NCBI RefSeq assembly: GCF_022811685.1
Contig: NZ_CP094532.1
Location: 1,513,501-1,577,500 of the forward strand
Length of the DNA: 64,000 nt
Direction: 5' to 3'
Origin: Chryseobacterium suipulveris
Lineage (GTDB): Bacteria > Bacteroidota > Bacteroidia > Flavobacteriales > Weeksellaceae
Positions 46,301 through 63,073 of the stretch are shown in pieces. Under the pieces are notes generated by a model that was given only the letters and a program-made list of their open reading frames with translations, had not been told where the DNA came from and ran no database searches. The translations under genes and the position numbers were made by a program. The stretch's first letter is position 1, and every line of letters starts with the position of its first letter.

Positions 46301-46639
46301 GGCTTTTTGATAAAGCTGGATCATAAAAGTAAATCTGTATGTACCTGTTGTGCATTTAAGACAAAATTTGTTCTCAGCGAATAATAGGCCTTTTGCAAAT
46401 ATTTGTTTGTCTTGGCTAAATGAAATGCCTTTGCGCTCTTGATGCAGTCATTTTGTCAAAATTTTCTTTGCGAACCTTTGCGAGAAAAAAAATCGTAAAG
46501 GGCTAGACAAAGCTAAATTAATTTTTTTGCTCTGTTTTTAAGATAAACAAAGGCGCTATAGGTTATTAATAATACACAAAGATACAAATGCACAACCGGT
46601 CTGTATATCAATTTTTACAGCATTTCAACTGGGTTAAAA
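46301..46639. other. intergenic region between ferritin and the kinase gene
   Basis: AT-rich, with no open frame of note and no relic recognised. It ends in the regulatory dyad at 46640. Confidence 0.4.
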
Positions 46640-46685
46640 TACCCAAATCACGGTATTGAAAGTAAACTACTTCTTACTATTTTTA
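46640..46685 (+). promoter_or_regulatory. variant regulon operator and -7 box of the histidine kinase gene
   Basis: TACCCAAATCACGGTA (46640-46655) is a degenerate form of the dyad found at four other units. It lies 22 bp before TATTTTTA (46678-46685). The spacing is identical in all five cases. It suggests autoregulation of the kinase gene. Confidence 0.7.
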
Positions 46686-46701
46686 CAAAAAATAACCTTA
46701 A

Positions 46702-48480
46702 ATGAAAAAACGCTTACTATTTTGTTTTTTGGTAGTTTGCCAATTCTATTTAGCTCAAGATACGGATACTGTTTTTACAAACCTTGATAAAGAAAAAGTT
46801 GCCGCCAAAAAAATAACTCTCTATAGCCATTATATTGACATTCTTAAAACTAAGGATGTTTCAAAGTCCCTAAAACTATCAAGCAAGGCAATTGCGTTCG
46901 CAAAAGAGCAGAAGGATCCAATTTCAGAGGCGGACTTTATTAGACTTAGAGGGCTGACTCATTACCTCGGTGGCAATCTCGACAGTGCCAATAATTATTA
47001 CCATCGGTCGCTTTCTATTCTCGAAAGCCATAGCGACAGCAAGCAGCTTGCAAACCTTTATAACAATTTGGGACAACTCAATAGAAAAATCCAGAACTAT
47101 CCTAAATCAATCGAATATTATGACAAATCCATGCAAATATTTACGAGTATTAAGGATGACGAAGGTATTGCCACCATCTACAATGAAAGTGGTGTGGTTT
47201 ACGAATACATGAAGAATTACGAGGAAGCCAAATCCCGATACATAAAATCGCTGAATATCCAGAAAAAAAGAGGGGATTTGGTAGGACAGGGTTACTCTCT
47301 CGAGTTCATCGGGGGCGTTAGTATGCTGCAGAAAAAGTATGCGGAAGCCGAAAAATACCTCACGGAGTCATTGAGTATCAGGAAAAAAACAAAGGACAAT
47401 TTTGCGATAGCGCTCAACTACAATGTATTGGGGCATCTTTTTCTCGAAAAAAAAGAGTACCGAACCGCTGCGGAAAATTTCATAAAAAGCAATCAGATTG
47501 CCACGACTATTCCGTACATGGATTTAATGAGAGACAATTACTTGCAGCTCTCGAATGTCGATAAAGAAATAGGTAATTATAAGGGAGCTTACGAAAACCA
47601 GGAGCTTTTCGTACAATATAATGACAGCATCTTCACCGCTGAAAAAATGAAGCAGATTGAAGAAATCTCGGTGAAATATGAAACGGAAAAAAAAGACAAA
47701 GAAATCCTTATTCACAAATCGAAAATTTTCAAGAGGAACGTCGCCCTGCTTTCGTTGTCAGGTCTTTTAATTTTCGGTTTCGGCTACTATAAAAACTTTA
47801 GGCACCGCCAGAAAATAAAATTCCAGAAAGAAATCCTACACCAGCAGGATTTGGCGACGAAGGCCGCAATGAGCGCGGAAGACAATGAACGGAAAAGAAT
47901 GGCAATGCACCTGCACGACGGAGTCGGGCAAATGCTCAACGCAACAAATATGAATCTTCAGGTATTGGAAGAATACCAAAACAACAAGGAGGGTTTCGAA
48001 ATGGTGATGAACAAAACAAGAAATATCCTTACCGACGCAATGACTGAAGTGCGGACACTTTCGCACCAGATTATGCCAAACATGCTAGTGAAAAACAGTC
48101 TTAGCAATGCACTTAGAGAGCTAATCGACAAAAGCAATTCGCCGAAACTACACATTAATCTTACTATCGACGGACTACAAGAAGACCTCGCAGAAAATGT
48201 TCAGATTGTGATGTTCCGCATAATACAGGAATGCATCAATAACACCATCAAACATGCAAATGCCTCCGAAATTGACATTGCCGTAAAACAAGATTCCAAT
48301 GAAATATCCGCATCATTCCGCGACAACGGCAGAGGATTCGATCCGACTTTATACCAGTCGAAATCTGAGGGAATGGGATTGGAAAACATTAAATCAAGAA
48401 TTGAATTTCTGAAAGGGTATTTCCAGCTGGACAGCGAAAAATCGAAAGGCACCTCTATTACCGTAAAAATCCCCATATAA
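46702..48480 (+). CDS. TPR-domain sensor histidine kinase (HisKA_3 type)
   Basis: A 592-aa kinase: signal peptide (1-19, ending YLAQ), periplasmic TPR repeats (about 65-300: ADFIRLRGLTHYLGGNLDSANNYYHRSL; LANLYNNLGQLNRKIQNYPKSIEYYDKS), one transmembrane helix (about 348-364, VALLSLSGLLIFGFGYY), HisKA_3 with His405 in MHLHDGVGQ, and an HATPase domain (NNTIKHANASEIDIAV; FRDNGRGFDP; SEGMGLENIKSRI). Such kinases signal to NarL/LuxR-type response regulators. No regulator gene is in the window, so it is an orphan here. Its own promoter has the regulon dyad. Confidence 0.92.
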   Translation: MKKRLLFCFLVVCQFYLAQDTDTVFTNLDKEKVAAKKITLYSHYIDILKTKDVSKSLKLSSKAIAFAKEQKDPISEADFIRLRGLTHYLGGNLDSANNYYHRSLSILESHSDSKQLANLYNNLGQLNRKIQNYPKSIEYYDKSMQIFTSIKDDEGIATIYNESGVVYEYMKNYEEAKSRYIKSLNIQKKRGDLVGQGYSLEFIGGVSMLQKKYAEAEKYLTESLSIRKKTKDNFAIALNYNVLGHLFLEKKEYRTAAENFIKSNQIATTIPYMDLMRDNYLQLSNVDKEIGNYKGAYENQELFVQYNDSIFTAEKMKQIEEISVKYETEKKDKEILIHKSKIFKRNVALLSLSGLLIFGFGYYKNFRHRQKIKFQKEILHQQDLATKAAMSAEDNERKRMAMHLHDGVGQMLNATNMNLQVLEEYQNNKEGFEMVMNKTRNILTDAMTEVRTLSHQIMPNMLVKNSLSNALRELIDKSNSPKLHINLTIDGLQEDLAENVQIVMFRIIQECINNTIKHANASEIDIAVKQDSNEISASFRDNGRGFDPTLYQSKSEGMGLENIKSRIEFLKGYFQLDSEKSKGTSITVKIPI

Positions 48481-48519
48481 TTGTTGGAAATTGTGGGCGC
48501 CCAAAACATAATTATTGGC

Positions 48520-48576
48520 AATGACACGGAAGGCGCTAGAAATGCGGCGACAGAAAATCCATAAATAATCAATACC
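48520..48576 (+). pseudogene. relic of a ferritin 3' end
   Basis: The reading DTEGARNAATENP and stop, plus the next 12 bases, match the ferritin tail at 46200-46256 at about 45 of 57 positions. It sits just after the kinase stop and is followed by a ferritin-like terminator. Only the last codons remain, so a second ferritin gene was probably replaced or lost. Confidence 0.7.
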
Positions 48577-48585
48577 GTTACGATA

Positions 48586-48617
48586 AAAACCCGCAGAAAA
48601 TTTTTTTGCGGGTTTTT
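48586..48617 (+). terminator. terminator after the kinase gene
   Basis: Stem AACCCGCA/TGCGGGTT extended by A-T pairs, with T5 after it. It resembles the ferritin terminator at 46273-46300. Confidence 0.82.
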
Positions 48618-48630
48618 CATCACCAAAATT

Positions 48631-48668
48631 TACGCAGTTTTACGTATGCGATTACGTAGGAATACGTA
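48631..48668 (+). promoter_or_regulatory. phased TACGTA hexamer array
   Basis: TACGCA at 48631, then TACGTA at 48641, 48653 and 48663: starts 10, 12 and 10 bp apart, about one DNA turn each. It lies about 75 bp upstream of the regulon operator for the SUMF-fold gene, so it may bind another regulator on one face of the helix. Confidence 0.5.
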
Positions 48669-48741
48669 TTTGCTCGATCACTTTTCTGTAGGAATTTTGA
48701 AGAGTTAACCAATTACTTACTTTCGTTTTTAAAGTAAAAAA

Positions 48742-48787
48742 TACCCAATTCGGGGTATATGAAATTTTGATGTTCCGCATAATTTTG
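48742..48787 (+). promoter_or_regulatory. regulon operator and -7 box of the SUMF-fold/T9SS unit
   Basis: TACCCAATTCGGGGTA (48742-48757), a 22-bp spacer, TAATTTTG (48780-48787). There is no -33 TTG, as expected if a bound activator replaces it. Confidence 0.78.
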
Positions 48788-48914
48788 AACAGTAAGAAAA
48801 ATGAAAAATGAAAAAGCTCGCCCAATTTTTTAACCGGATAAAGACTGTAATTAGATCCTTTGTCATTATCGACCGAAATATCATTTGAAAAACAACCTTT
48901 AAATATCTTATTTT

Positions 48915-50402
48915 ATGAAAACAAGAAAATTACTTGTGAGAGCACTTTACAGTGCAGCGTTCTCGTTATTTGCCACAGCGATGCAGGCAAATAACCTGCA
49001 AATCAGCGGGACATCTGTAGATACAACTACAGGAGAAGTTACCTTTAACATTAAGTGGGACAACAGCTGGCGCACCAATATCGCACCGGCAAACCACGAC
49101 GCAGTTTGGGTATTCATCAAATATCAGGACTGTACCGACAAGCTTTGGAAACACGCAAATCTTAGTGTGACTTCGGCAGATCATTCCGCAGCTTCGCCGT
49201 TAAAGGTGGATGCGGTTACCGATGGAAAAGGAGCGTTTGTTTACCGCAGCGCAAACGGTGGCGGAAATATCGGGAATACTTCCGTAACCTTGAAGCTCAA
49301 CATCGCGGGAGCCAACTATGCAAATCTCAACTTTAAAGTTTTTGGGGTGGAAATGGTGAACATTCCACAGGGAAGTTTTACAGTGGGTGATGGTGCTTCA
49401 ACCAGTGCATTTACCCAATATACCGTGCTCAATGAAAATGCGCTTACCTCATCGACAATCGGGACAGGGAATGCCGCACCTGCAGCTTTTCCAAAAGGTT
49501 ACAAAGCTTTCTACAGCATGAAGTACGAAATCACCCAGGAGCAGTATGTGGATTTCCTGAACACGCTTACTTACGGACAGCAGGCGAGAAGATCTGTTGC
49601 AAGTCCAGACGGAGCGGTGGGAACTTTTGCGTTCGCAAATACGTACAGAAACGGTATCAAGATTAAAGTACCGGGAAACAACGCAGCGGTTCCTGCGGTT
49701 TATGGATGTGATTTAACAGCGAACGATTTTGATGATTTAAATGATGGTCAGAACATTGCAATGAACCATTTAAGTTGGGGTGATCTTACCGCATATCTGG
49801 ACTGGGCAGCACTACGACCAATGACAGAAATGGAATTTGAAAAAATCACACGTGGTCCTTTAGCTCCCGTTGCGAACGAATATGCATGGGGTACAACTAC
49901 TCTTAACGGTTTTACAGCTGCAATGTTACAGAATGCGAATTCACCAAATGAAGGATTGTCAGTCGTTGCAAGTGGAAGAGCAAATTACGGACTGTGTTCT
50001 GGTTGGGGAGCAGGAGGAACTTATTCAAACCCTGTTAAAGTCGGTTTTACCGCTACCGCATCTTCAGGAAGAGAGTCCGCGGCGGCGGCTTATTACGGTG
50101 TAATGGAAATGAGTGGTAATGCAGTCGAATTGGCAATTTCTGCCAAAACAGCTGGTGGAAGTACATTTACAGGTGTATTAGGTGATGGGCAATTATCAAC
50201 TACTACCGCAACCGATGGCGATTCCGATCAGGCAAACTGGCCAGATAATACTGGAGCAATTGAAAGAGGAGGAGGATTTTTTGTAGCTTGTGGTACTGTC
50301 TTTAACAATACTAACTCATCAACATTAAGAATATCTGATCGATCTTCTGGAGCATTGGGTGCTGCAAGAAGCTTGAATTATGGTGGTCGCGGTGTGAGAT
50401 AA
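48915..50402 (+). CDS. secreted SUMF1/FGE-fold (C-type lectin-like) protein
   Basis: A 495-aa exported protein: signal peptide to about residue 25 (FATAMQA), an N-terminal beta domain (about 28-145), then a formylglycine-generating-enzyme-like C-type lectin fold (about 150-495): VEMVNIPQGSFTVGD, FYSMKYEITQEQYVDFLNTL, MNHLSWGDLTAYLDWAALRPMTEMEFEKITRG, GVMEMSGNAVELAIS, ERGGGFF and GGRGVR. The two catalytic cysteines of true FGE are not evident at the expected place, so it is likelier a surface or binding protein. It has the regulon operator and probably forms an operon with the T9SS gene 67 bp downstream. Confidence 0.85.
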   Translation: MKTRKLLVRALYSAAFSLFATAMQANNLQISGTSVDTTTGEVTFNIKWDNSWRTNIAPANHDAVWVFIKYQDCTDKLWKHANLSVTSADHSAASPLKVDAVTDGKGAFVYRSANGGGNIGNTSVTLKLNIAGANYANLNFKVFGVEMVNIPQGSFTVGDGASTSAFTQYTVLNENALTSSTIGTGNAAPAAFPKGYKAFYSMKYEITQEQYVDFLNTLTYGQQARRSVASPDGAVGTFAFANTYRNGIKIKVPGNNAAVPAVYGCDLTANDFDDLNDGQNIAMNHLSWGDLTAYLDWAALRPMTEMEFEKITRGPLAPVANEYAWGTTTLNGFTAAMLQNANSPNEGLSVVASGRANYGLCSGWGAGGTYSNPVKVGFTATASSGRESAAAAYYGVMEMSGNAVELAISAKTAGGSTFTGVLGDGQLSTTTATDGDSDQANWPDNTGAIERGGGFFVACGTVFNNTNSSTLRISDRSSGALGAARSLNYGGRGVR

Positions 50403-50469
50403 TCAATTCTAATTTGAAGAGGCAGCGTCCTTTTAAGAATTATTCCATTAATATTAAAATCAAATTAGA

Positions 50470-51999
50470 ATGAAGACAATCATATCAACCACAAAAACAG
50501 CGGTGCTGGGTTTCGTCTTACTGTTTTCATCTTTCCTGAAAGCTCAGGATGAAGCGTACGCCTACCGCGGAGGAATTGCGGACGGACACACGATGGAAGC
50601 CGTGGAAAACAACACCTGCGGAACTCCGTTCCACCAGTTTGCCTATTTCGGCGGGATTGGTGACGGGAGCTCCTTTGAACTGCTCGAAAACTCACCGTGT
50701 ACAGCAACTCCGTTTCATCAGTTTGCTTACTACGGCGGCAACGGCGACGGTTATGCTCTGGAATTTATGAGGGTGTGTCCGGTAACGCCGCCTGCTCCGG
50801 TGATCGGTGCGAGTTCAGACAATATCTGCCTGAACCAGACGGTAACTTTCAGCGATACATCGAATACCGCGGTTATCTGGAAATGGACTTTCCCAGGAGG
50901 AACATTGGTGGCGCCATCAACCATTAACAGCAAAAATCCGGTAGTGAGATACACCACTGCAGGAACCTACTCTGTAACTTTGGAGGCGACGAATGCAGAT
51001 GGAACATCCACGGTAACAGAAACCAACTTCATTACCGTAAATGCAACTGCATCTATTACTGCGACTACGCCCGGATCAAGATGTGGAGCAGGAAGTGTCA
51101 CTATTTCTGCAACGCCGAACACGGGAACCGTAAAATGGTATAATGCGGCAACTGGAGGTACATTACTGTTTACAGGAAATTCCTTCAACACGCCGAGTAT
51201 CAGTACGACTACAACGTATTATGCTGAAGCATTCAACGGATGCGTATCTGCGACCAGAACGGCGGTAACTGCGACAATCAATACTGTGCCTACAATCACC
51301 GGAACCGGCTCTACAAGCTGCACCGGAGGAACATTTACGCTCACTGCGACACCAAGCGCGGGAACCGTAAGTTGGTACGATGCAGCATCCGGCGGAAACC
51401 TTCTGGGAACAGGAACAGTTTTCAACACACCTAATATTACCGCAACCACAAGTTACTATGCAGAAACTTCCACAGCAACGTGTACTTCGACAAGGATTGA
51501 AGTGAAGGCAGTAGTGAACAATACCGCCGCTCCAACAGGAGATGCAACCCAGGTATTGTGCGGACCTAAAACGCTTGCCGATTTGGTAGTAACCGGAACA
51601 GCCATCAAGTGGTACGACGCGGCAACCGGAGGAAATCTTCTGCCGCCTTCAACGCCAATTGTTTATGGCACTACCTATTACGCATCGCAGACTGCAAACG
51701 GATGTGAAAGTGCATCAAGATTAGCGGTGACCGTAGAAGCTTGCTTGGCAACTTCAAACGTAGGTGGAAGAGAGGCGGTGCTTTATCCGAACCCGGTATC
51801 CGATATTTTAAATGTGAAATATCCATCGGAGATTGCAAGCATAGAAATCTACAGCATGACCGGACAGTTGATTTCAAAACATCATGAGAATTCGTCTCAC
51901 TACAGAATGAATGTGCAAAAACTTACTTCAGGCGTTTACCTGTTGAAAGTTCATACTAAAGACGGCAAAACCGAGACGTATAAAATCATCAAGAAGTAG
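50470..51999 (+). CDS. T9SS type A sorting-domain protein with PKD and Ig-like repeats
   Basis: A 509-aa secreted protein. The signal peptide ends near SSFLKAQ. It has three near-identical N-terminal motifs (Y-GG-GDG-E repeats: AYRGGIADGHTMEAVENN; AYFGGIGDGSSFELLENS; AYYGGNGDGYALEFM), a PKD domain (about 103-190), and three Ig-like SprB-type repeats with the signature TGTVKWYNAATGG/GTVSWYDAASGG (about 192-425). The C-terminal T9SS tail has LYPNPVSDILNVK and YKIIKK. It is probably surface-attached. It is read together with the SUMF-fold gene and ends at the terminator 52021-52056. Confidence 0.9.
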   Translation: MKTIISTTKTAVLGFVLLFSSFLKAQDEAYAYRGGIADGHTMEAVENNTCGTPFHQFAYFGGIGDGSSFELLENSPCTATPFHQFAYYGGNGDGYALEFMRVCPVTPPAPVIGASSDNICLNQTVTFSDTSNTAVIWKWTFPGGTLVAPSTINSKNPVVRYTTAGTYSVTLEATNADGTSTVTETNFITVNATASITATTPGSRCGAGSVTISATPNTGTVKWYNAATGGTLLFTGNSFNTPSISTTTTYYAEAFNGCVSATRTAVTATINTVPTITGTGSTSCTGGTFTLTATPSAGTVSWYDAASGGNLLGTGTVFNTPNITATTSYYAETSTATCTSTRIEVKAVVNNTAAPTGDATQVLCGPKTLADLVVTGTAIKWYDAATGGNLLPPSTPIVYGTTYYASQTANGCESASRLAVTVEACLATSNVGGREAVLYPNPVSDILNVKYPSEIASIEIYSMTGQLISKHHENSSHYRMNVQKLTSGVYLLKVHTKDGKTETYKIIKK

Positions 52000-52020
52000 T
52001 TTTCATGTAGTTATTTTATG

Positions 52021-52056
52021 AAGGGTTCCTGGAGTATTTCGGGGATCCTTTTTTTT
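52021..52056 (+). terminator. terminator after the T9SS gene
   Basis: 9-bp stem AAGGGTTCC/GGGATCCTT with two G-T pairs, a 12-base loop, then T8. Confidence 0.8.
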
Positions 52057-52117
52057 GAACTGTTAGAATTTCTGAATTCATAGAGAAACGGAAAAAATAA
52101 CGGTTTACCCTCAAAAA

Positions 52118-52163
52118 TACCCAATTCAGGGTATATCAAAAATTTACTACAAAAGTATCTTTG
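52118..52163 (+). promoter_or_regulatory. regulon operator and -7 box of the 613-aa protein gene
   Basis: TACCCAATTCAGGGTA (52118-52133), a 22-bp spacer, TATCTTTG (52156-52163), 31 bp before the ATG. Confidence 0.8.
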
Positions 52164-52194
52164 AACTAATAAAAAACCTAAAAACTTTATTAAT

Positions 52195-54036
52195 ATGAAA
52201 ATTAAAAAACTACTTGTTGCCCTCGCAGTTGGAACTGCCGCACAGGTTTACGCACAGCAAACCGGAATCAATATTCTGGAAAAAGACTACGAAATATCCC
52301 GAAAAGCCAAAAAAGGGTATCTCGGTGGAGTGGAAGCTAAAGAAAATGGCAATTTCGACATGGTGTATTTTCTGCCTTCAAGCAGAAGAAAAGTGAAGAT
52401 TGAAGTGTATAGTTTTGATAAGGACGCCAATCTTTTAGACACCAAAAAAGATGAATGGGATGTGGAAAAGGTTAAGAAAAAATGGAAATGGTTCAACTTT
52501 AAGGGTGACGAATATTCTACAACAGCAGCATCGTTAAGTACCAATCTTAGTGGCAAAATGATGTTTAAGAAAAGACTCATCAAAGCCAAATACAATTGGT
52601 TAGTTGGTGGATATTTGAAAAGTATAAAAATGCTTGATCGGCAAAAACTTACAAGTGAAAACGGTGAAGAATATCTTTTCAGCGGCGCTTATGAAGTAGA
52701 AAGAGACAGCACTATTTTAGCTTTGGCGTATCCTTATACAAAAGGTTCTTCCTACTCGAATTTGGATTTGATTAAAGTGAATAATGAAGGCGTTTCAAAA
52801 AAATTGGCTTCGGTTCCAACTTCAAGCCCAATGAAACCTATCTTTTCTAAACCCTTGTTGGACGACAACAGTAGGGATGTAGATAACGATGATTTTCCGC
52901 GAGATTGGGTTGTAGTTTTAGCTCCAACAAAAGCCTATGGAAAAAGCAATACAGGAACTCCAAACCAATTTACCTATTTGAGGATTTCCCCAGAAGGAAA
53001 CTTAAAGGAAAATTTTACGTTTAATTCTCCTGATGCAGGTTACAGGATTTTGAACGTCTACGAAAAAAACGGAACTGTACTACTTTATGGCATGAGTATA
53101 AAGAAAGATGGCAAATATGCGGATGAAGTTTTAGGACAAACCGTGTCACCTTCAAGTATGGATGATCAGGAAAAAGCTGCAACATCTTCAAGTGGAGGTA
53201 TGCTTGGCGGATTGGGAAAAATGGCAGGAATGATTTCTGGCAAAGAAGAATTGGCGCCATCACAAGCAAGTTTAGATAACGCATTAGACGAAAAAAAGTA
53301 TGATAATTTCGTGATTACCAAAATCCAGAACGGAAATGCGGTCTATGTGAGACCTACCGCAATGCCTGAACTCAACCAAAAAGCAGTTGCAGGATCAGAC
53401 ATGAAAAAACCTTTGGAATTTGACGGAAAAAAATTCACAGCCAACAATTTTCAGATCCTGAAAGATGGTTCATTTGTTCTGTGTCTTCAAGATTTCAAAC
53501 CAAGCAGTGGAGGAATTGGTGGAAATAAACTTTTAGGAGTTTCCAGATCGGGAAGTAGCTATGACAGAGTTTACAAAGGAATGTACATGCTACATTTTTC
53601 ACCAGAAGGTAGTTTGGTAAGAAACTATACCGTTCTTCTTGATCAGAAGAATAAAAAGGGATTCTTCAATAATTCTCCAATGACTGCAGATAACTTTCCG
53701 GCAACAAGTTATGTGATTGAAAGTAAAGACGGCAAGTCGATAAACTGGATAATGGAAATGGTAAAAGCTATTGACAAAGATACAAGTGTAAGTACATTCT
53801 TGGATACTACCACAACTACAACAACCTATTCTCCGTTTTATAGTATTGAATATGGTAAATTGGATCTATCCACCGGAAAATCTTCCGAATTCAGAACTTT
53901 GGGAGATTTAGAAAAGAAAAAATATTACCTGTACGAAAAACACAACCGAATCCAGATTGGTGATTATACCTACTTCTTCAGCGAAACACCTAACGGAGGT
54001 CGCCTGCTGGTATCAAGAATCAATATTAATGATTAG
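52195..54036 (+). CDS. large exported protein of unknown function
   Basis: A 613-aa protein with signal peptide (1-20, ending QVYAQ). The mature chain looks beta-propeller-like (SRRKVKIEVYSFDKDANLLDTKKDEWDVEKVKKKW; KGMYMLHFSPEGSLVRNYTVLLD; YYLYEKHNRIQIGDYTYFFSET). A low-complexity glycine/methionine stretch near residue 340 (SSSGGMLGGLGKMAGM) interrupts it. No enzyme motif is visible and there is no T9SS tail, so it is probably periplasmic. It is a single-gene unit of the regulon. Its family is not recognised. Confidence 0.8.
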   Translation: MKIKKLLVALAVGTAAQVYAQQTGINILEKDYEISRKAKKGYLGGVEAKENGNFDMVYFLPSSRRKVKIEVYSFDKDANLLDTKKDEWDVEKVKKKWKWFNFKGDEYSTTAASLSTNLSGKMMFKKRLIKAKYNWLVGGYLKSIKMLDRQKLTSENGEEYLFSGAYEVERDSTILALAYPYTKGSSYSNLDLIKVNNEGVSKKLASVPTSSPMKPIFSKPLLDDNSRDVDNDDFPRDWVVVLAPTKAYGKSNTGTPNQFTYLRISPEGNLKENFTFNSPDAGYRILNVYEKNGTVLLYGMSIKKDGKYADEVLGQTVSPSSMDDQEKAATSSSGGMLGGLGKMAGMISGKEELAPSQASLDNALDEKKYDNFVITKIQNGNAVYVRPTAMPELNQKAVAGSDMKKPLEFDGKKFTANNFQILKDGSFVLCLQDFKPSSGGIGGNKLLGVSRSGSSYDRVYKGMYMLHFSPEGSLVRNYTVLLDQKNKKGFFNNSPMTADNFPATSYVIESKDGKSINWIMEMVKAIDKDTSVSTFLDTTTTTTTYSPFYSIEYGKLDLSTGKSSEFRTLGDLEKKKYYLYEKHNRIQIGDYTYFFSETPNGGRLLVSRININD

Positions 54037-54099
54037 AAACACAAACCGTGAGAATCAATTTCGCAACAAATAATGTTTTCATTATTCGTTTTTAGGGGT

Positions 54100-54128
54100 G
54101 GCCGGGAGAAATTCCGGTCATTTCTTTT
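54100..54128 (+). terminator. terminator after the 613-aa protein gene
   Basis: 8-bp stem GGCCGGGA/TTCCGGTC with two G-T pairs and a 4-base loop, followed by a T-rich run. Confidence 0.65.
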
Positions 54129-54223
54129 ATCGGTTGGTGAGGAATTGCTGCAAACTTGTATAAATTTTACGCTGAATTAAGTATTTCGAAACGCACCAAA
54201 GATTTTTAGTTTTAGATGAAAAA

Positions 54224-54269
54224 TACCCAATTCAGGGTATATCGATTTGAAATGGCTGAAATACTTTTA
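54224..54269 (+). promoter_or_regulatory. regulon operator and -7 box of the 54299 lipoprotein unit
   Basis: TACCCAATTCAGGGTA (54224-54239), a 22-bp spacer, TACTTTTA (54262-54269). The block from here to the coding start is nearly identical to 57353-57431. Confidence 0.8.
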
Positions 54270-54298
54270 CCTCAATATTAACCCCTAAAATTTTTATT

Positions 54299-54757
54299 AT
54301 GAAAACAATTTTCAAATCTATCGCTGTTTTAGCTGTATGCGCAGTTCTTTTTATTTCATGCAACAGAAGTGAAGATCCTGCCCCGAATAATCCGCTTCCT
54401 GCAGCTGCAGGATTCACTTGGAGAGAGAACGATCCCAATGGAGCGGTAAAGACGGCCGGCTCGTCAGAAGTCAGAACCCAATACAAATCCATTTTCGCCT
54501 TCGCAGGTCCTACAGCAACTTCGGGTACTATCTTTGAAATTAATCTAACAGGAACTGTACCTGCAACCTACGATTTGGCAACATCGGGAAATGCATTGTA
54601 TTACGGTGGCTTTGGACCGGGGGGAACCATCACTGGCAAAGTGATCATCACCAAAAACGATGGGTCGAAAGCAAGCGGAACATTGGAGGCGTTTACCACA
54701 GCTTCAGGAAATATCACGAAAGTTTACGGAACCTTCACCGATATCCCCGTAAAATAA
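54299..54757 (+). CDS. small lipoprotein of the regulon
   Basis: A 152-aa lipoprotein with lipobox FISC (Cys21), then a linker RSEDPAPNNPLPAAAG. The mature domain of about 115 residues is beta-rich (SIFAFAGPTATSGTIFEINLTGTVPATYDLATSG; GKVIITKNDGSKASGTLEAF). The signal sequence start and the SCNRSEDPAPNNP linker are shared with the otherwise unrelated lipoprotein at 57429. A terminator (54765-54791) separates it from the ELWxxDGT gene, which would then be read through only in part. Confidence 0.8.
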   Translation: MKTIFKSIAVLAVCAVLFISCNRSEDPAPNNPLPAAAGFTWRENDPNGAVKTAGSSEVRTQYKSIFAFAGPTATSGTIFEINLTGTVPATYDLATSGNALYYGGFGPGGTITGKVIITKNDGSKASGTLEAFTTASGNITKVYGTFTDIPVK

Positions 54758-54764
54758 TTTAACG

Positions 54765-54791
54765 AAGCCGGCGTATCACCGGTTTTTTTTC
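54765..54791 (+). terminator. intra-unit terminator or attenuator
   Basis: 7-bp stem AAGCCGG/CCGGTTT with one G-T pair, a 7-base loop, then T-run. It lies 19 bp before the ELWxxDGT gene start. Confidence 0.75.
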
Positions 54792-54809
54792 TTTAAAAAA
54801 ATCAACGAC

Positions 54810-57218
54810 ATGAAAAAATTTTACTTATTAGCATTTCTTTCCTTGTCATTTTTGGGAAATGCGCAGTTTACGAAAATAATGGATTTATCCGGTGATGTAA
54901 AACCTGGAATGTATGACATTATTAATAATTATAACATCTGGAACAACAAGCTCTTCACTTTCACTATAGAAGACGGTACAAACGATTTGCTGGTAAAAGT
55001 TACCGACGGAACTGTTGCCGGAACAAAGCTTGTCAAGAGAATCTCAAAACCTGCCGCCTATTCTTCCTGGTCTCCATACGCAACAAAGCCTGCCGGAAAC
55101 GGACTGTATTTTAAAATAGGAACTGTGGATAATGCAGGAAACAATATATGTGAACTATGGTTTACCGACGGTACAGAAGCCAACACAAGACTCATCAGCA
55201 ACAACAGTTATCTGGAAATTGGAGGATCGCATATGGTTACCGTAATTAAGCATCGGGATGTGCAGCCCTCAAATATTGGAGACCTGTTTTTCTTCTGGAA
55301 AGCGACGGGAACAACTTCCAACACCCCTATGACGCTTTGGAAAACCGACGGAACTTCGGCGGGAACTTCACAGGTTTCTTCATCCATCTTTAATTTAGCT
55401 AACAACCTGGAGGAATTTGATTATGGGATTACGTTTAATGGTTATTACTATTTCAGAGGCGGAAACGGCACCACCAACTATAACCATCTTTACAGAACCG
55501 ACGGAACTGCTGTCGAAACCATTAAACAATTTCCTCTAACACTTTCAGGCACCGGAATAGACAGAATGGGAACGGTTTTCAAAAATAAACTGTTCTTCGT
55601 CGCCACTACCGAAGTAGGTGTTAATGGAAGCAGCTATACTCAAACAGAAGTGTGGGAAACCGACGGAACGGAGGTAGGAACCAAAATGTTCTATAATTTT
55701 AAAGGGAATGATAGTGGAATGGAAAAATTTGAAGTCAACGACAGATTTAGCTTCAGAAAAACCGATCACCTGATGTTGCTCAAATCGCTGGAAAACACAT
55801 CAACTGTTTATTATACAGACGGAACTTCTGCCGGGACCGCAATAGCTTTTAGCGGTGTTGACGCTCAACCTGCAAGAGTAATTACAGGCAATAATTCAGC
55901 TTATTTTTTAAGGTTGAATAGCAACAACGATACCCCAAAAAGAGTGAATGCCCTCATTGGATTTCCTCCTGTCGCGTATTCTTTCGACAAAAAAATATTT
56001 TCAGAAGAAGGCAAAGTCCTCAACAACACGCTTTGGTTTATGAATAAGGACACTTATAGTTCTTACAATGTGATACCATGGCGCTCCACAGGAACCGACA
56101 CTACTACTTTTGCCACAGCCAATTCTAATTTTGGTATGGGTGGTTTCGGAGCGAAAACCTTTATATTGAATAACGAGCTTTATTTCATCACCAATTACTT
56201 AGGGTTTATGAATATGTCGCTGTACAAATTCAATCCCGATTATACCTTTACTAATGCAGCGGGAGACAACAACTGGTCCAACGTAAATAACTGGGTTGCG
56301 AAAAATATTCCTTTAAACAATGATAATGTAACGATTCCTGCTGCTTTTTCTCCAAATATCAATGGAGCAGCTTTTGCAAATGACCTTACCGTAAATTCGC
56401 CATTAAACATTTCCACCGGAAGTCTCAATATTTCAGGAAATTTAAATTTAGGCGCAAACATTACCTTAAACAACAACAATCTTAATTTAAAGGGCGGAAG
56501 TTCAAACGTTTCAAGAACTGCCATGGCTTCAGGTCACTACATCGTCACCAACGGAACCGGAACCGTAAACATCGAAAACCTCGATGCAGCAAGAGGTACG
56601 GTAAATCTGCCAATCGGAACGGCAACCAATTACAATCCAATTTCAATTTCAAATTCAGGGACTTCCGACACTTTTTCGGCAAGAGTTTCTGACGGAATCT
56701 CAAACACGACAAACGGTGCGGTAAATTCCACCTGGGAAATCTCTGAAGCAACCGCGGGCGGAAGCAACGTCAATCTGTCTTTGGGATGGAACGCTTCCCA
56801 GGAAAATTCGTCCTTCTCAAGAAATTCCGCAAAAGTCGGTCATTATTTAAACGGAAGCTGGAACGAAGAAAATTCGGGAACAGTTTCAGGAACGGATCCG
56901 TTTACAATCTCAGCAACGGGAATTACCAGTTTCTCGCCATTTTCTGTGATGAATTTCGGGGCGTTGGCAACACATAATTCCATAAAAAATGGAGTAGAAG
57001 TTTATCCGAATCCATTCAGTGAATTGCTGAATATTTCTTGCTTAGAAAACGGAACAGTAAGTTTCTATGACATGTCCGGAAAACTGGTTTCCACAGAATT
57101 TTTGGTTAAAGGAACGAACCTTTTAAACAAATCTAACTTACAAAAAGGAATCTACATTTATCAGATTAAAGGAAAAGATGGAAACGTAGTTGCAAACGGG
57201 AAAATTATTAAAAAATAG
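54810..57218 (+). CDS. ELWxxDGT-repeat T9SS type A protein, copy 1
   Basis: An 802-aa surface protein: signal peptide (1-19, ending LGNAQ); ELWxxDGT beta-propeller repeats (about 25-470: ELWFTDGTEANTRLIS, LWKTDGTSAGTSQVSS, VWETDGTEVGTKMF); a bridge with NNNWSNVNNW-like carbohydrate-associated sequence (about 485-500); a right-handed beta-repeat (INGAAFANDLTVNSPLNIS; about 510-570); a conserved domain (about 575-720) shared almost unchanged with copies 2 and 3; and a T9SS type A tail (VYPNPFSELLNIS; ending GKIIKK). Its role is unknown; such proteins are probably adhesins or binding proteins. Confidence 0.9.
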   Translation: MKKFYLLAFLSLSFLGNAQFTKIMDLSGDVKPGMYDIINNYNIWNNKLFTFTIEDGTNDLLVKVTDGTVAGTKLVKRISKPAAYSSWSPYATKPAGNGLYFKIGTVDNAGNNICELWFTDGTEANTRLISNNSYLEIGGSHMVTVIKHRDVQPSNIGDLFFFWKATGTTSNTPMTLWKTDGTSAGTSQVSSSIFNLANNLEEFDYGITFNGYYYFRGGNGTTNYNHLYRTDGTAVETIKQFPLTLSGTGIDRMGTVFKNKLFFVATTEVGVNGSSYTQTEVWETDGTEVGTKMFYNFKGNDSGMEKFEVNDRFSFRKTDHLMLLKSLENTSTVYYTDGTSAGTAIAFSGVDAQPARVITGNNSAYFLRLNSNNDTPKRVNALIGFPPVAYSFDKKIFSEEGKVLNNTLWFMNKDTYSSYNVIPWRSTGTDTTTFATANSNFGMGGFGAKTFILNNELYFITNYLGFMNMSLYKFNPDYTFTNAAGDNNWSNVNNWVAKNIPLNNDNVTIPAAFSPNINGAAFANDLTVNSPLNISTGSLNISGNLNLGANITLNNNNLNLKGGSSNVSRTAMASGHYIVTNGTGTVNIENLDAARGTVNLPIGTATNYNPISISNSGTSDTFSARVSDGISNTTNGAVNSTWEISEATAGGSNVNLSLGWNASQENSSFSRNSAKVGHYLNGSWNEENSGTVSGTDPFTISATGITSFSPFSVMNFGALATHNSIKNGVEVYPNPFSELLNISCLENGTVSFYDMSGKLVSTEFLVKGTNLLNKSNLQKGIYIYQIKGKDGNVVANGKIIKK

Positions 57219-57352
57219 ACTCTTTAATTTTTAAATCATACTGTAATAAAATAATTATACCAATACTACTTTTTTCAGATAGATTAATGAATATGGAAGA
57301 ATAACAGGTGCTGGATTTTGGCAAAATTCGATTATCGATATTTTCTTAAAAA

Positions 57353-57398
57353 TACCCAATTCAGGGTATATCGATTTGAAATGGCTGAAATACTTTTA
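57353..57398 (+). promoter_or_regulatory. regulon operator and -7 box of the 57429 lipoprotein unit
   Basis: TACCCAATTCAGGGTA (57353-57368), a 22-bp spacer, TACTTTTA (57391-57398), 30 bp before the ATG. Confidence 0.8.
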
Positions 57399-57428
57399 CC
57401 TCAATATTAGCCCCTAAAAATTTTTATT

Positions 57429-58199
57429 ATGAAAACAATTTTCAAAATTGCAACCGCAACAGTAATCGCAGCATCACTTGTTTCATGCAACAGATCGGAA
57501 GATCCTGCCCCGAATAATCCGCCCTCTTCTGGAGTTTTGCCAAAAAAAATGGTAAGTACTTACTCTAATTATCCAAATAATCCTAGAACTGTAACTTACA
57601 CTTATGACGGAAACAAAATTTCCGAGATCAACATTTTTCCTCAAGAAGACGTAAGTAAAATTAAATATACTTATACTGGAGATAATATCACTAAAATTGA
57701 AAAATTTACAGGTTCCAATTTTTCTTCATACTACATTTCAAATCTTGAATATCAGAATGATAAATTAGTAAAAGTTTCATCACCATCGGGTTACAACGAA
57801 ACCACGTTTGTGCACAATCCGGATGGGACAGTAATTCAGACCTATAAATATTCATCTACTTCGAGCAGCCAACAAAGTAAGCTTTATTTCACTGGTGGCA
57901 ATATGGTAAAAAGAGAAAACCTTGATGCCAACGGAGCTGTCGTACAAACAATAAATTATAGCTATGACACAGCCAAAAATGGAATGCTGAAAAACGTTAC
58001 CGGTTTAACAAAGGTGTTATCGGGATTTTCTGCGTATGACGAAGGCGACACCGGTGTTAATGCTTTGACTGGAATTACTGATACAGGAGTCGCAAGTAAC
58101 AACAGTACTTATACTTATGAGTACAACAGTGATTCTTTTCCAACAAAAAGAGTAAGAAATAGAAACAATGTTACAGCTACAGCAGTGATCAGTTATTAA
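57429..58199 (+). CDS. YD-repeat-like lipoprotein of the regulon
   Basis: A 256-aa lipoprotein with lipobox LVSC (Cys20), then the same linker as the 54299 protein (CNRSEDPAPNNP). The mature part has alternating strands with YD/RHS-like character (VTYTYDGNKISEINIF; IKYTYTGDNITKIEKFTG; YEYNSDSFPTKRV), similar to the DUF4595-type lipoproteins of Bacteroidota. It heads a unit with copies 2 and 3 of the ELWxxDGT genes. The promoter and first codons are a duplicate of the 54299 gene while the mature domain is unrelated. Confidence 0.82.
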   Translation: MKTIFKIATATVIAASLVSCNRSEDPAPNNPPSSGVLPKKMVSTYSNYPNNPRTVTYTYDGNKISEINIFPQEDVSKIKYTYTGDNITKIEKFTGSNFSSYYISNLEYQNDKLVKVSSPSGYNETTFVHNPDGTVIQTYKYSSTSSSQQSKLYFTGGNMVKRENLDANGAVVQTINYSYDTAKNGMLKNVTGLTKVLSGFSAYDEGDTGVNALTGITDTGVASNNSTYTYEYNSDSFPTKRVRNRNNVTATAVISY

Positions 58200-58370: not shown

Positions 58371-60671
58371 ATGAAATATATTTATACAGCATTTTTAGTC
58401 TTATGTTATTCTCTAGTTAGCTCTCAAACTAAGCTTATCCAATATATGACTAGGGTACCAGACGCAAGTCATTTTATAAATTATAAGACGGATATTTGGC
58501 AAAATAAAGTATTTTATAAGTCACAAGGATACTTAATGTATTTTGATGGCATTAATTTACCTAAAGTTGTAAAAAAGACAAATGATAATGCTTTTTATTC
58601 TAACCAGTTTAAATCTACAACAAACTGGATGTACTTTACTGATAAAAATCCTACAACGAATCTTATTGAATTATGGAGAACTGATGGTACCGATGCTAAT
58701 ACAATAAAACTTGATGAGGCCACATCGATTATTATAAATCAAGTTGGTTCAGGTTATTCGTATCAAACCGCAATTTTATACGATTCAGAACTAAACGGAC
58801 AATTTTTCTATTTTAAAAATAATTCATTGTATAAAACAGATGGGTCCGTTTCTACACTTATAAAAAGTAATCTTTATAGACAAGGAACTTATTTTATTTG
58901 TAACAATGCATTTTATTTTTACAATTATAATAGTAGTACAAATACAGAGCACGGAATTTATAAATATGACGGTGCAGTGCTTGAAAATATCTATCCAGTA
59001 GTTATGGATTATACTGTAGTTGCTAATTCAATAAGTTACTTGCTTGGTAAATTTGGTAATAAAATATTATTTGCGGGTATATATAATAAAGTAAAAGGTT
59101 TCTATAGTATAGATACAGTGACAGGCAGTGTTGTATTGGAATTGCCTACAGAGTACTTGTCAGATGCAGATTGGAACAATGTTTCAGGATCAATCTCAAA
59201 AGATGGCATCTATCTTAAACTTTCTGTAACTAAAAATAATGCAACAACATATGGTATCTATCGTTTTGGAGCGGATGGTTTAATAAAAATTATAGATACA
59301 TATGATTTAAATGTTAAACAATTTGTGTGCAATGATAATTTGATCTATTTAGTTTACACAAAAAATAGTGAATCTAATACCTCTTTGTATTTTAGGAAAA
59401 TGACTTTATCAGGAAATTTAATTTCAGAATCCAGAATAAAGGACATTTCAAATATGAATACGAGTGCAAAATTTGGATTTTTTAGAGATTCCTACTGGTT
59501 TCAATATTCATTACCAAATATTGCAGATTTTGAATTATGGAGAACGGATGGAACAAATGAAAATACAGTGCAGGTACAAAATATTGACGAAAGCCAAAAT
59601 ATGAGTTCTGGGCCAACAAATTTTTTTGTTCTAAACGACAGGCTGTATTTCTTTGGCTCTAAAAGCTATATGCCGTGCCTTTATGAATTTGCTGGGGATT
59701 TTACATTCAACAATAATAAGCAGGATAATAATTGGAATAACAAAGAAAATTGGAATAGCTTGTTATTGCCTTCATCTGTAGACGATGCAAATATCCCTAA
59801 CTCTCAAAATTTGCAAATTAACGGAAGTGCTTTTGCTAAAAATCTTAACGTTTCTTCACCCATTGATATATCTTCTGGCTCACTCAACATTTCTGGAAAT
59901 ATAGATTTAGGAGCAAAAATCACCCTAAATGGAAACAATCTAAACCTAAAAGGCAGCGATTCTAAAATTACAAATGCCAATTCCACCAACTACATCATTA
60001 CCAACGGAACAGGAACGGTAAACGTAGAAAACCTCGACGCAGCAAGAGGAACAGTAAATCTGCCAATCGGAACAGCAACTAATTACAACCCAATTTCAAT
60101 TTCCAATTCGGGAACTTCCGATACTTTTTCTGCAAGAGTTTCAGATGGAATTCAGAACACGACAAACGGCGCAGTAAATTCCACCTGGGAAATCTCTGAA
60201 GCAACTGCAGGCGGAAGCAACGTAAATGTAACTTTGGGATGGAATGCTTCACAGGAAAATTCATCCTTCTCAAGAAATTCCGCGAAAGTGGGACATTATC
60301 TAAACGGAACCTGGAATGAAGAAAACTCGGGATCAGTTTCAGGAACCGATTCGTTTACAATCTCTGCAACCGGAATCACAAGTTTCTCGCCATTTTCTGT
60401 GATGAATTTTGGGGCGTTGGCTGCGAATAATATTTCTAAAAATCAGGTTTCTGTTTATCCGAATCCATTTTCTGATAATTTAAATATTTCTACAGATGAA
60501 AATGCATCAATTTATTTGTATGATTTATCAGGCAAGTTGATTTCAAAAGAATTTTTGGTGAAGGGAAGCAACTCATTGAACAAATCTTCACTCCAGAAGG
60601 GAATCTACTTTTATCAGATTAAAGGTAAAGATGGTAATATGGTTTCATCAGGGAAAATTATTAAAAAATAA
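58371..60671 (+). CDS. ELWxxDGT-repeat T9SS type A protein, copy 2
   Basis: A 766-aa protein with signal peptide (1-19, ending LVSSQ). The N-terminal propeller is divergent and clearly more AT-rich than its neighbours (LIELWRTDGTDANTIKLDE; FELWRTDGTNENTVQVQN). From about residue 455 on it becomes alike to copies 1 and 3, with the near-identical NGTGTVNVENLDAARGTVNLP block, and ends with the T9SS tail (VYPNPFSDNLNIS, GKIIKK). The GC step between its halves suggests recombination. It stops 5 bp before copy 3, so they are co-translated. Confidence 0.9.
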   Translation: MKYIYTAFLVLCYSLVSSQTKLIQYMTRVPDASHFINYKTDIWQNKVFYKSQGYLMYFDGINLPKVVKKTNDNAFYSNQFKSTTNWMYFTDKNPTTNLIELWRTDGTDANTIKLDEATSIIINQVGSGYSYQTAILYDSELNGQFFYFKNNSLYKTDGSVSTLIKSNLYRQGTYFICNNAFYFYNYNSSTNTEHGIYKYDGAVLENIYPVVMDYTVVANSISYLLGKFGNKILFAGIYNKVKGFYSIDTVTGSVVLELPTEYLSDADWNNVSGSISKDGIYLKLSVTKNNATTYGIYRFGADGLIKIIDTYDLNVKQFVCNDNLIYLVYTKNSESNTSLYFRKMTLSGNLISESRIKDISNMNTSAKFGFFRDSYWFQYSLPNIADFELWRTDGTNENTVQVQNIDESQNMSSGPTNFFVLNDRLYFFGSKSYMPCLYEFAGDFTFNNNKQDNNWNNKENWNSLLLPSSVDDANIPNSQNLQINGSAFAKNLNVSSPIDISSGSLNISGNIDLGAKITLNGNNLNLKGSDSKITNANSTNYIITNGTGTVNVENLDAARGTVNLPIGTATNYNPISISNSGTSDTFSARVSDGIQNTTNGAVNSTWEISEATAGGSNVNVTLGWNASQENSSFSRNSAKVGHYLNGTWNEENSGSVSGTDSFTISATGITSFSPFSVMNFGALAANNISKNQVSVYPNPFSDNLNISTDENASIYLYDLSGKLISKEFLVKGSNSLNKSSLQKGIYFYQIKGKDGNMVSSGKIIKK

Positions 60672-60676
60672 AAGTC

Positions 60677-63073
60677 ATGAAAAAGATATACACAATTTTA
60701 GCTTTGGCACTGACATTTTTTTGCAGTGCGCAATTGTCGCAAGTTTTACCGTACACCAGTACAAACGGTTTCGGCACAACACAGACCGACGACACGATGA
60801 TTTATAACAACGAGTTTTACGGATCAACTGCCGGAACTGTATCTTCGGTAGAACTCCGAAAATTCAACGGCACCACGATAACGGAAATAAAAAGTTTTCC
60901 AGGGTATTATTCCGGAAGCTTAGCCTCTACCATGATGTTGGGTAGTTTCAATAAAACGGAGAGCAAACTATATTTCATCACTACGCAAACGCTCTACAAC
61001 ACTAATTATACGGTGAACGAAAGCACAAGCGAGTTATGGGTTACAGACGGTAGTGCGGCAGGAACGCTGAAATTGTTAACGGTGACCAGACCTGGCAATT
61101 TTGCTTTCAACATTATTTTAACAGATACTCATTATGGTGCGTTCAAAACAAACAGCAATTATGTAGGCGACAAACTTATTTTCTCAACCTACAATACCAC
61201 AATGGTTACAGACGGTACTGTGGCGGGAACAAAACCTTTAACTGCTAATGGAATTCCTATCCCTATGTTGTCAATGCCGGGACCAAAACTCAACGGGAAG
61301 TATTATTTTTCAGCTACAGACGGAACTTTGCACAGTACAGACGGTACAGATGAAGGCACCCAGAACATCGTCTCGAATTCAGTAGTTTCAGTTTACAGTC
61401 CTATGAGTATGCCGCTGAATGGAAAATTCATGTTCTGGGGCAACAATTCCGAAAGCGGAACCGAACTTTGGGAATCCGACGGAACTGCTGCCGGAACCAA
61501 ACTTTTCTATGAGACCGTACCCGGACCTGAAACCGGAAAAATAATTTATGGAAATTCCATCGACATGGCTAATGACGGAAAACACATCTACTTCATGCTT
61601 GCTAATGGAACAGACCGCGAAGTGTGGTCAACGGATTTAACGGTAGCAAATACAAAAAAAATAAAAGATGCCAATAATTATCTGCCACAACTTAGTGTTT
61701 TAGGCAATGGTATCATTTATTTTCAGGAAAACACTATATCACCGCCTTATTTAAGTAAAATCTGGAAAAGTGATGGAACACCGGAAGGAACTAAACAGAT
61801 TTCAGATGTCTTCAAAAGCAACTCCATGGCTCTTTATCAAAATTCACTCTACTTTCAAAGAGCTGAAAACAAAACCACTATTGGTAGTAATCAAGTGGAT
61901 AATAATATTGAACTATGGAAATCCGATGGCGAACCTGAGAATACAAGAATGATTTTTGACATTTATCCTGGCGGATTGACTTCTCCTTATGTCGTAGCGA
62001 ATAAATCCGAACCAGGTATGTTTTTCGTGCTGAATGATGTACTATACTTTGTTGCAAAAAACGCCTCAGGAAAATTTATCTACAAATTTAAAGGAGATTA
62101 TACATTTAACGGTGTAACCAACAACAACTGGAGCAATCCTAACAACTGGAATTCTGGCGTGGCTCCAGGAATTCAGGATCTGGTAAACATTCCTGCAGGA
62201 TTTAATTTAAATATAGACACCAACTCTTTTGGTAAGGATGTTAACGTAAGTTCTCCGCTCAATCTTTCTTCTGGAAACCTAAATATTGGCGGATATTTAA
62301 ACCTCGGCGCGAACATTACATTAAACAACAACAATCTTAATTTAAAAGGCGGAAATTCAAACATATCAAGAAGCACATTGGCTTCAGGTCACTACATCGT
62401 CACCAACGGAACCGGAACCGTAAACATCGAAAACCTCGACGCAGCAAGAGGAACAGTAAATCTGCCAATCGGAACTGCTACAAATTACAACCCGATTTCC
62501 ATTTCAAATTCAGGGACTTCCGATACTTTTTCGGCAAGAGTTTCCGACGGAATCTCGAACACCACAAACGGCGCGGTAAATTCCACCTGGGAAATTTCGG
62601 AAGCAACTGCAGGCGGAAGCAACGTCAATCTGTCTTTGGGATGGAACGCTTCCCAGGAAAATTCGTCCTTCTCAAGAAATTCCGCGAAAGTGGGACATTA
62701 TCTAAACGGAAGCTGGAATGAAGAAAACTCGGGATCAGTTTCAGGAACCGATCCGTTTACAATCTCTGCAACGGGAATCACAAGTTTTTCGCCATTTTCT
62801 GTGATGAATTTCGGGGCGTTGGCTTCGAATAATATTTCTAAAAATCAGGTTTTAGTTTATCCGAATCCGTTTAATGAGAACTTTACTATTTCCTTAAATG
62901 AAAATTCGGTGGTGAATTTCTATGACATTTCCGGAAAATTGGTTTCTTCTTCCATTTTATTGAAAGGAAATAATACGCTCAACAAGTCCGACCTTCAGAA
63001 AGGAGTTTATATTTATCAGGTAAAAGGAAACTCTGGAAACGTGATTGCAAACGGGAAAATTATAAAGAAATAA
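60677..63073 (+). CDS. ELWxxDGT-repeat T9SS type A protein, copy 3
   Basis: A 798-aa protein: signal peptide (1-18, ending FCSAQ), ELWxxDGT propeller repeats (SELWVTDGSAAGTLKLL, TELWESDGTAAGTKLFYE, IELWKSDGEPENTRMIFD), the FNGVTNNNWSNPNNW bridge, the shared conserved domain, and a T9SS tail (VYPNPFNENFTIS, ending GKIIKK). The N-terminal half differs from copies 1 and 2, while the shared block is nearly the same at DNA level. It is the last gene of the unit; the terminator at 63112-63137 follows. Confidence 0.9.
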   Translation: MKKIYTILALALTFFCSAQLSQVLPYTSTNGFGTTQTDDTMIYNNEFYGSTAGTVSSVELRKFNGTTITEIKSFPGYYSGSLASTMMLGSFNKTESKLYFITTQTLYNTNYTVNESTSELWVTDGSAAGTLKLLTVTRPGNFAFNIILTDTHYGAFKTNSNYVGDKLIFSTYNTTMVTDGTVAGTKPLTANGIPIPMLSMPGPKLNGKYYFSATDGTLHSTDGTDEGTQNIVSNSVVSVYSPMSMPLNGKFMFWGNNSESGTELWESDGTAAGTKLFYETVPGPETGKIIYGNSIDMANDGKHIYFMLANGTDREVWSTDLTVANTKKIKDANNYLPQLSVLGNGIIYFQENTISPPYLSKIWKSDGTPEGTKQISDVFKSNSMALYQNSLYFQRAENKTTIGSNQVDNNIELWKSDGEPENTRMIFDIYPGGLTSPYVVANKSEPGMFFVLNDVLYFVAKNASGKFIYKFKGDYTFNGVTNNNWSNPNNWNSGVAPGIQDLVNIPAGFNLNIDTNSFGKDVNVSSPLNLSSGNLNIGGYLNLGANITLNNNNLNLKGGNSNISRSTLASGHYIVTNGTGTVNIENLDAARGTVNLPIGTATNYNPISISNSGTSDTFSARVSDGISNTTNGAVNSTWEISEATAGGSNVNLSLGWNASQENSSFSRNSAKVGHYLNGSWNEENSGSVSGTDPFTISATGITSFSPFSVMNFGALASNNISKNQVLVYPNPFNENFTISLNENSVVNFYDISGKLVSSSILLKGNNTLNKSDLQKGVYIYQVKGNSGNVIANGKIIKK

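Follow-up and report, generated by a model that had tools for sequence, protein, structure and literature searches.

LuxR-type regulators are common in the Bacteroidota and, to our knowledge, few of their operators are known. FimR, which works with the kinase FimS in Porphyromonas gingivalis, is a regulator of this type. According to the accessible parts of two reports, FimS has TPRs in its periplasmic sensor, the FimS/FimR system raises the expression of exported surface proteins, and the mfa1 promoter is retarded by FimR in EMSA; these parts give no operator for FimR (PMC11053733, PMC1974823). The authors of one report proposed that the FimS sensor reads protein or peptide (PMC11053733). For NarL, the accessible part of another study describes an engineered high-affinity site, TACCCCTAAAGGGGTA, and 7-2-7 sites at −40 to −49 in the napF and −38 to −47 in the yeaR promoter of Escherichia coli, and states that NarL acts as a repressor and as an activator (PMC4549865). 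The housekeeping −7 box of Flavobacterium psychrophilum, TAnnTTTG, spans −12 to −5, and the accessible text of that study contains nothing on LuxR or palindromes (PMC9723704).

The window (the whole stretch of 64,000 nucleotides that was analyzed, positions 1513501-1577500 of the host genome, G000, a single 3.04-Mb contig of 3,037,983 bases) contains five NarL-like dyads, one of them upstream of a gene for a TPR kinase, HKw. On comparison with relatives, the dyads appear to define a real regulon governed by a two-component system of the FimS/FimR kind, in which the operator is NarL-like and the sensors are exchangeable. The operator, the promoter geometry, the likely regulator, and the regulon are all readable from sequence here, and one signal would act over several sets of T9SS cargo. 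Among published titles, none concerned this operator, regulator, regulon, or such kinases, but this is a weak absence, as subscription papers were little covered.

HKw resembles FimS in having a TPR sensor together with HisKA_3 and HATPase_c domains, and its candidate response regulator (RR) is of the LuxR type, like FimR; the targets are again exported proteins. However, they are SUMF, PKD/Ig, p613, and ELWxxDGT proteins, with no fimbrial families among the Pfam and NCBIfam matches behind the five sites, and there are two kinases per RR. Against the NCBIfam FimS model, HKw aligns over residues 5-546 (E 2.9e-29) and scores 101.8 bits, below the curated cut-off of 600; by analogy it would work like FimS without being filed as FimS. 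It is also distinct from NarX (61.2 bits, cut-off 578) and NarQ (70.6 bits, cut-off 553). The dyads have the form of TACCCCTAAAGGGGTA, with which they share the 16-bp inverted repeat TACCC-N6-GGGTA, in agreement with the 7-2-7 geometry of NarL sites that the original prediction had recognized (accessible part of PMC4549865). RR aligns end to end with NarL of E. coli (E 2.3e-18), but has the helix ESTVETHRKN where NarL has ESTVKVHVKH, and the sites differ in having an A-tract on one side only and a Bacteroidota promoter.

Putative Operators and Promoter Geometry

The pattern used to define the sites was a TACCC-N6-GGGTA dyad, N22, and then TAnnTTTR. All five dyad positions in the original prediction were recovered on the + strand (Table 1), and the 22-bp gap from dyad to TAnnTTTR that it had claimed is exact at each. 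When the window was scanned for the dyad with ≤3 mismatches, 14 matches were obtained, as compared with 4.7 (S.D. 2.28) in 100 shuffles. TACCCAANNCRNGGTA occurs five times in the whole G000 genome, every copy being in the window, and its reversed control 0 times. The full pattern has 5 matches across G000 at ≤1 mismatch, 0 at 2 mismatches, and 21 at 3 mismatches, compared with 40 at 3 mismatches in the reversed control; the gap at 2 and the sub-control count at 3 separate the five sites cleanly from background. It should be noted that operators 4 and 5 lie within a duplicated stretch (54219-54395 and 57348-57522; 178 alignment columns, the first 68 with 1 mismatch) and, being duplicates, reduce the number of independent promoters to four. 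The duplication starts exactly at the AAAAA preceding the dyad and extends into the lipoprotein leader; the duplicated piece consists of operator, promoter, and lipoprotein leader, placed before two different mature proteins.

Table 1. Putative operators in the window and the genes behind them
Feature	Position	Strand	Description
Operator 1	46640..46655	+	TACCCAAATCACGGTA, 1 mismatch; upstream of kinase gene HKw; −7 box TATTTTTA at 46678-46685
HKw	46702..48480	+	592-aa histidine kinase; N-terminal leader, TPR sensor, HisKA_3, HATPase_c
Operator 2	48742..48757	+	TACCCAATTCGGGGTA; −7 box TAATTTTG at 48780-48787
SUMF/FGE-sulfatase-fold exported protein	48915..50402	+	495 aa; behind operator 2
PKD/Ig_7 protein with T9SS sorting domain	50470..51999	+	509 aa; operator 2 unit
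Operator 3	52118..52133	+	TACCCAATTCAGGGTA; −7 box TATCTTTG at 52156-52163
p613	52195..54036	+	Exported; behind operator 3
Operator 4	54224..54239	+	TACCCAATTCAGGGTA; −7 box TACTTTTA at 54262-54269
p152	54299..54757	+	Small protein, lipoprotein-type leader (read from sequence); behind operator 4
T9SS protein with ELWxxDGT repeats	54810..57218	+	802 aa; operator 4 unit
Operator 5	57353..57368	+	TACCCAATTCAGGGTA; copy of operator 4 including flanks; −7 box TACTTTTA at 57391-57398
p256	57429..58199	+	Leader as in p152, rest different; behind operator 5
T9SS protein with ELWxxDGT repeats	58371..60671	+	766 aa; operator 5 unit
T9SS protein with ELWxxDGT repeats	60677..63073	+	798 aa; operator 5 unit

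The dyad of operator 1 is imperfect and its box is only 16 bp from the start codon; its CGGTA half-site also precedes the SUMF gene of a relative, G002. An extra half-site-like sequence, GGGTTAAAATACCC, lies ahead of operator 1 (window 46628-46655) and may compensate for its weak half-site. A second minor feature is a group of ACGTA/TACGTA-like repeats (window 48628-48672), about 70-110 bp upstream of operator 2, which may form a further binding element of the SUMF promoter.

For the consensus, 36 sites at 22 bp were reduced to 27 by dropping those ≥80% alike, and the 23-bp sites, a site from Flavipsychrobacter, and the sites of three genomes without RR were left out. The five bases directly 5′ of the dyad are A in 21, 22, 27, 23, and 27 of the 27 non-redundant sites. 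This A-tract, which lay outside the pattern searched, belongs to the conserved element, AAAAA-TACCC-N6-GGGTA. When the spacing was left free (8 to 38 bp), the 36 congeneric genomes gave 33 exact matches, compared with 6 in the control. Twenty-five of these are at 22 bp, all in genomes with RR, whereas the other eight are at 15, 18, 18, 19, 19, 23, 23, and 30 bp, six of them in RR-less genomes. The random placement and loose spacing that, by the original prediction, would speak against a functional site are therefore not what is found. Exact TACCC-N6-GGGTA dyads shared by the RR-less genomes G008 and G017 (L144, L146) lie 19 bp from a −7 box, and those of G011 and G029, also RR-less, at 18 and 23 bp (L145, L147-L149); these perhaps belong to other LuxR regulons with a similar half-site.

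As in Bacteroidota housekeeping promoters, a −7 box is present at all five promoters, but the −33 element is not conserved and the dyad lies just upstream of its position. No TTTG between dyad and box is conserved in the 27 non-redundant sites, which bears out the earlier remark that this element is missing. With the box at its F. psychrophilum position (−12 to −5), the dyad would extend from −50 to −35 with its center near −42.5. Class II activators use such a place upstream of promoters without a −33 element; assignment to this class (site near −41.5, no −33/−35 element) agrees with the lack of a conserved TTTG and, for position, assumes a start of the F. psychrophilum type. A dyad adjoining the −33 region could also allow RR to repress by covering that region, and NarL, in the accessible text, both represses and activates (PMC4549865). 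Repression appears distinctly unlikely, however, since promoters with no conserved −33 element would be weak without help, and the nearly rigid distance is as expected from contact with polymerase. Activation is the preferred reading of the same geometry.

It has also to be considered that A-tract and dyad form an intrinsic terminator for the opposite strand and no protein site, because on the − strand the dyad reads as a hairpin followed by a T-run and two of the five are listed as terminator-like by a scan. That scan is at chance level (15 matches, compared with 15.0 in shuffles, as is the σ70 scan with 45 compared with 46.2), so single terminator-like matches are weak evidence. The three hairpin-forming sites have stems of no more than −6.2 to −7.5 kcal/mol and the other two prefer another fold, operator 1 folding on the − strand with the GGGTTAAAATACCC half instead of its own dyad; by comparison, a hairpin at 48575-48625, between HKw and operator 2, has −20.6 kcal/mol (z −7.36). 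Moreover, the spacing between dyad and −7 box and the confinement of the sites to genomes with RR are left unexplained by a terminator, and this reading, which is extremely improbable, was rejected.

Genes behind the Putative Operators

HKw has one membrane helix, as read from its sequence. p613, p152, and p256 have no Pfam or NCBIfam match; the predicted structure of p613 is all-β and propeller-like (pLDDT 77.7). The regulon of exported proteins that had been proposed agrees with the gene content, there being four such units behind sites, and exported proteins are predicted behind sites in relatives also. The window p613 shares 97% identity with its G002 counterpart (L122, 5864-7717), while the neighboring PKD/Ig and SUMF proteins are about 51% identical, and p613 of G000 and G002 appears to be the product of a recent transfer or recombination.

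Kinase, RR, site, and target are directly in line in 17 of the 20 genomes of the family that carry RR. The target in line is mostly p613, but SUMF in G038 and G284 and a DUF5122 protein in G021; the p613 site of G015 has 23-bp spacing and one dyad mismatch, and in G004 what we take to be a transposase-like frame stands between RR and site. A unit of site and SUMF is also found in G002, G004, G007, G010, G013, G022, G038, and G284. Further exported-looking targets are a TPR protein (G004), a 171-aa protein without a Pfam match (G010), and propeller proteins of the DUF5122/Rax2 type with T9SS tails (G015, G021).

The Candidate Response Regulator

No RR gene follows HKw in G000, and the interval from HKw to operator 2 shows no recognizable trace of a former one. 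The candidate RR is a 217-aa protein encoded at G000:C1:1646854-1647504(−), 85 kb downstream. The original prediction of a regulator encoded elsewhere is supported in that respect, but RR is not without a partner, being beside a second kinase, HKpar (647 aa). The Response_reg domain of RR scores 72.5 bits (cut-off 30.2) and its GerE domain 67.3 bits (cut-off 23.5), which gives RR the receiver followed by a GerE/LuxR HTH of the NarL/FixJ (LuxR-type) regulators. A second gene, at C1:806690 (L008, 1477-1866), was considered as an orphan RR candidate and rejected; it encodes only a receiver end and HTH, with no open N-terminal half in frame, is probably a relic of a LuxR-like gene, and adjoins what we presume to be a tyrosyl-tRNA synthetase-like gene.

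Among 36 congeneric genomes, sites at ≤1 mismatch are present in 13 (29 sites, 24 in relatives and 5 in G000, compared with 4 in the control). The same 13 genomes have HKw homologues at E < 1e-100, the best match in the other 23 being 1.9e-44, and an RR homologue at E < 1e-70, the other 23 having no match at 1e-30; both lines were set after the gaps were visible, and the presence profiling covered the candidate RR alone among the LuxR regulators of G000. In 320 genomes of the family, where 9 RR candidates were scored per genome, the exact site is present in 21 (3 matches in the control), RR at E ≤ 1e-45 in 20, and both in 18; with this scoring, all 20 carriers are at 1e-74 or better, and the exact site occurs in 18/20 carriers compared with 3/300 RR-less genomes. 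The two other carriers have near-exact sites beside RR: in G038 a dyad with one mismatch and 22-bp spacing, upstream of the SUMF gene, and in G288 a dyad without mismatch but with 23-bp spacing, upstream of p613. Fisher's exact test, in which genomes were counted ignoring kinship, gives p = 4e-10 for the genus, p = 2e-24 for the family, and p = 8e-8 for genomes outside the genus, and some promoters in the comparison are alike through recent common descent or transfer. The exact sites in RR-less genomes (G045, G247, G296) are at about the control rate: one has what we take to be a radical-SAM-like protein 95 bp downstream, the second an exported protein 28 bp downstream, and the third lacks any open frame of 60 aa over the next 370 bp. 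A scan of named genomes with the kinase found no relative.

These comparisons support the NarL/LuxR type that was predicted for the regulator, and the dyads are likely to be operators of RR, through which HKw and the four exported-protein units would be activated in a class II manner. The recognition helix of RR, TVETHRKN, is identical in all 20 homologues and present in other LuxR regulators also, so the argument for specificity rests on co-occurrence and not on the helix. That helix, and the fact that RR adjoins a target in most carriers, would permit a different regulator to bind the operators, with RR co-occurring because it travels in the same transferred neighborhood. Likewise, in Flavipsychrobacter a one-mismatch dyad (L188, 7931-7946) lies exactly 22 bp before TACATTTG, upstream of a distant p613 (48%), and the best RR match, located elsewhere in the genome, is 40% identical; this type of operator may predate the family. 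However, the sites are on contigs other than that of RR in six genomes (G004, G007, G010, G013, G015, and G022) and RR is unlinked from them in G000 and G002, with no dyad at ≤1 mismatch near RR in 20 kb and 19 kb, respectively. Moreover, Chryseobacterium sp. HSC-36S06 has a p613 (75% identity) with an RR2-type system just upstream, no dyad at ≤1 mismatch in 17.9 kb around it, and RR matches ≤31% identical. Binding by another regulator is thus very unlikely, and RR is retained as the probable regulator.

Two Kinases and a Probable Shared Output

HKw and HKpar are only 25% identical in the sensor but 81% identical in the catalytic part, whereas the catalytic part of HKw is 26% identical to those of HK2 and HK3; the combination of dissimilar sensors and similar catalytic domains indicates that HKw and HKpar probably share RR. 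The original prediction that HKw controls its own gene and four units holds insofar as the HKw gene has a site, but HKw is probably one of two sensors and not the sole one. G000 and G002 are alone among the 13 genus genomes in having two kinases at E < 1e-100, and those of G002 are 28% (sensor) and 83% (catalytic) identical. HKw groups with G015 and G021 when the sensors are compared, but with HKpar and G022 when the tree is built from the catalytic domains. The opposite grouping is rejected in each tree by the AU test (p 0.004 and 0.003), but long branches are present and the groups tested were named after the first tree was seen; a catalytic pair of HKw and HKpar is neither supported nor rejected (p 0.34). 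Such chimerism would result from gene conversion or from an exchange of sensors, and either route suggests a catalytic domain constrained to a single partner.

The location of RR away from HKw in G000 and the missing remnant after HKw could mean that HKw, as an orphan, has some other RR as its partner and that only HKpar serves the regulator of these sites. This is unlikely in view of the catalytic identities, and because kinases with HKw-like sensors adjoin this RR in G015, G021, and G038 and RR distance follows catalytic distance (ρ 0.77) more closely than sensor distance (ρ 0.44) over 78 dependent pairs.

The binding of RR, activation, phosphotransfer from HKw, feedback, and a signal are what we infer from the sites, their spacing and uniqueness, the co-occurrence with RR, the gene order, and the kinase chimerism, all of which are sequence-based. 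The periplasmic TPR sensor would read protein or peptide, as suggested for FimS, and the kinase, probably both HKw and HKpar, would phosphorylate RR. RR would then occupy both half-sites, at about −50 to −35, as a dimer, and the lack of a conserved −33 element suggests that it acts as a class II activator, bringing RNA polymerase to the TAnnTTTR promoter. HKw and the four units of exported proteins would make up the regulon. With HKw itself a member, there would be a positive loop, one sensor inducing another: HKw would be made along with the exported proteins, and the cell would gain a second sensor after the regulon has been turned on. The earlier interpretation appears to be largely right and is supported in part, activation and dependence on the kinase being the portions that we infer.

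More broadly, a conserved output module (catalytic domain, RR, and operator at fixed distance) may carry exchangeable TPR sensors, the first switching on the second in a relay that leaves the output unchanged; this is a tentative reading, which we place slightly on the doubtful side of even. If true, the cell would alter what is sensed and retain the same output, the first sensor inducing one of different specificity. Among the relatives, nature provides a set of kinases in which sensors have been swapped and the output retained, and these bear on how kinases stay specific as what they sense changes. Five sensor groups with ≤35% identity are found on this output, and G284 has a further sensor, ≤35% identical to the six compared (partial sequence). 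In G038, an HKw-like sensor (57%) is beside RR and SUMF, which is the layout of the window with RR still in place.
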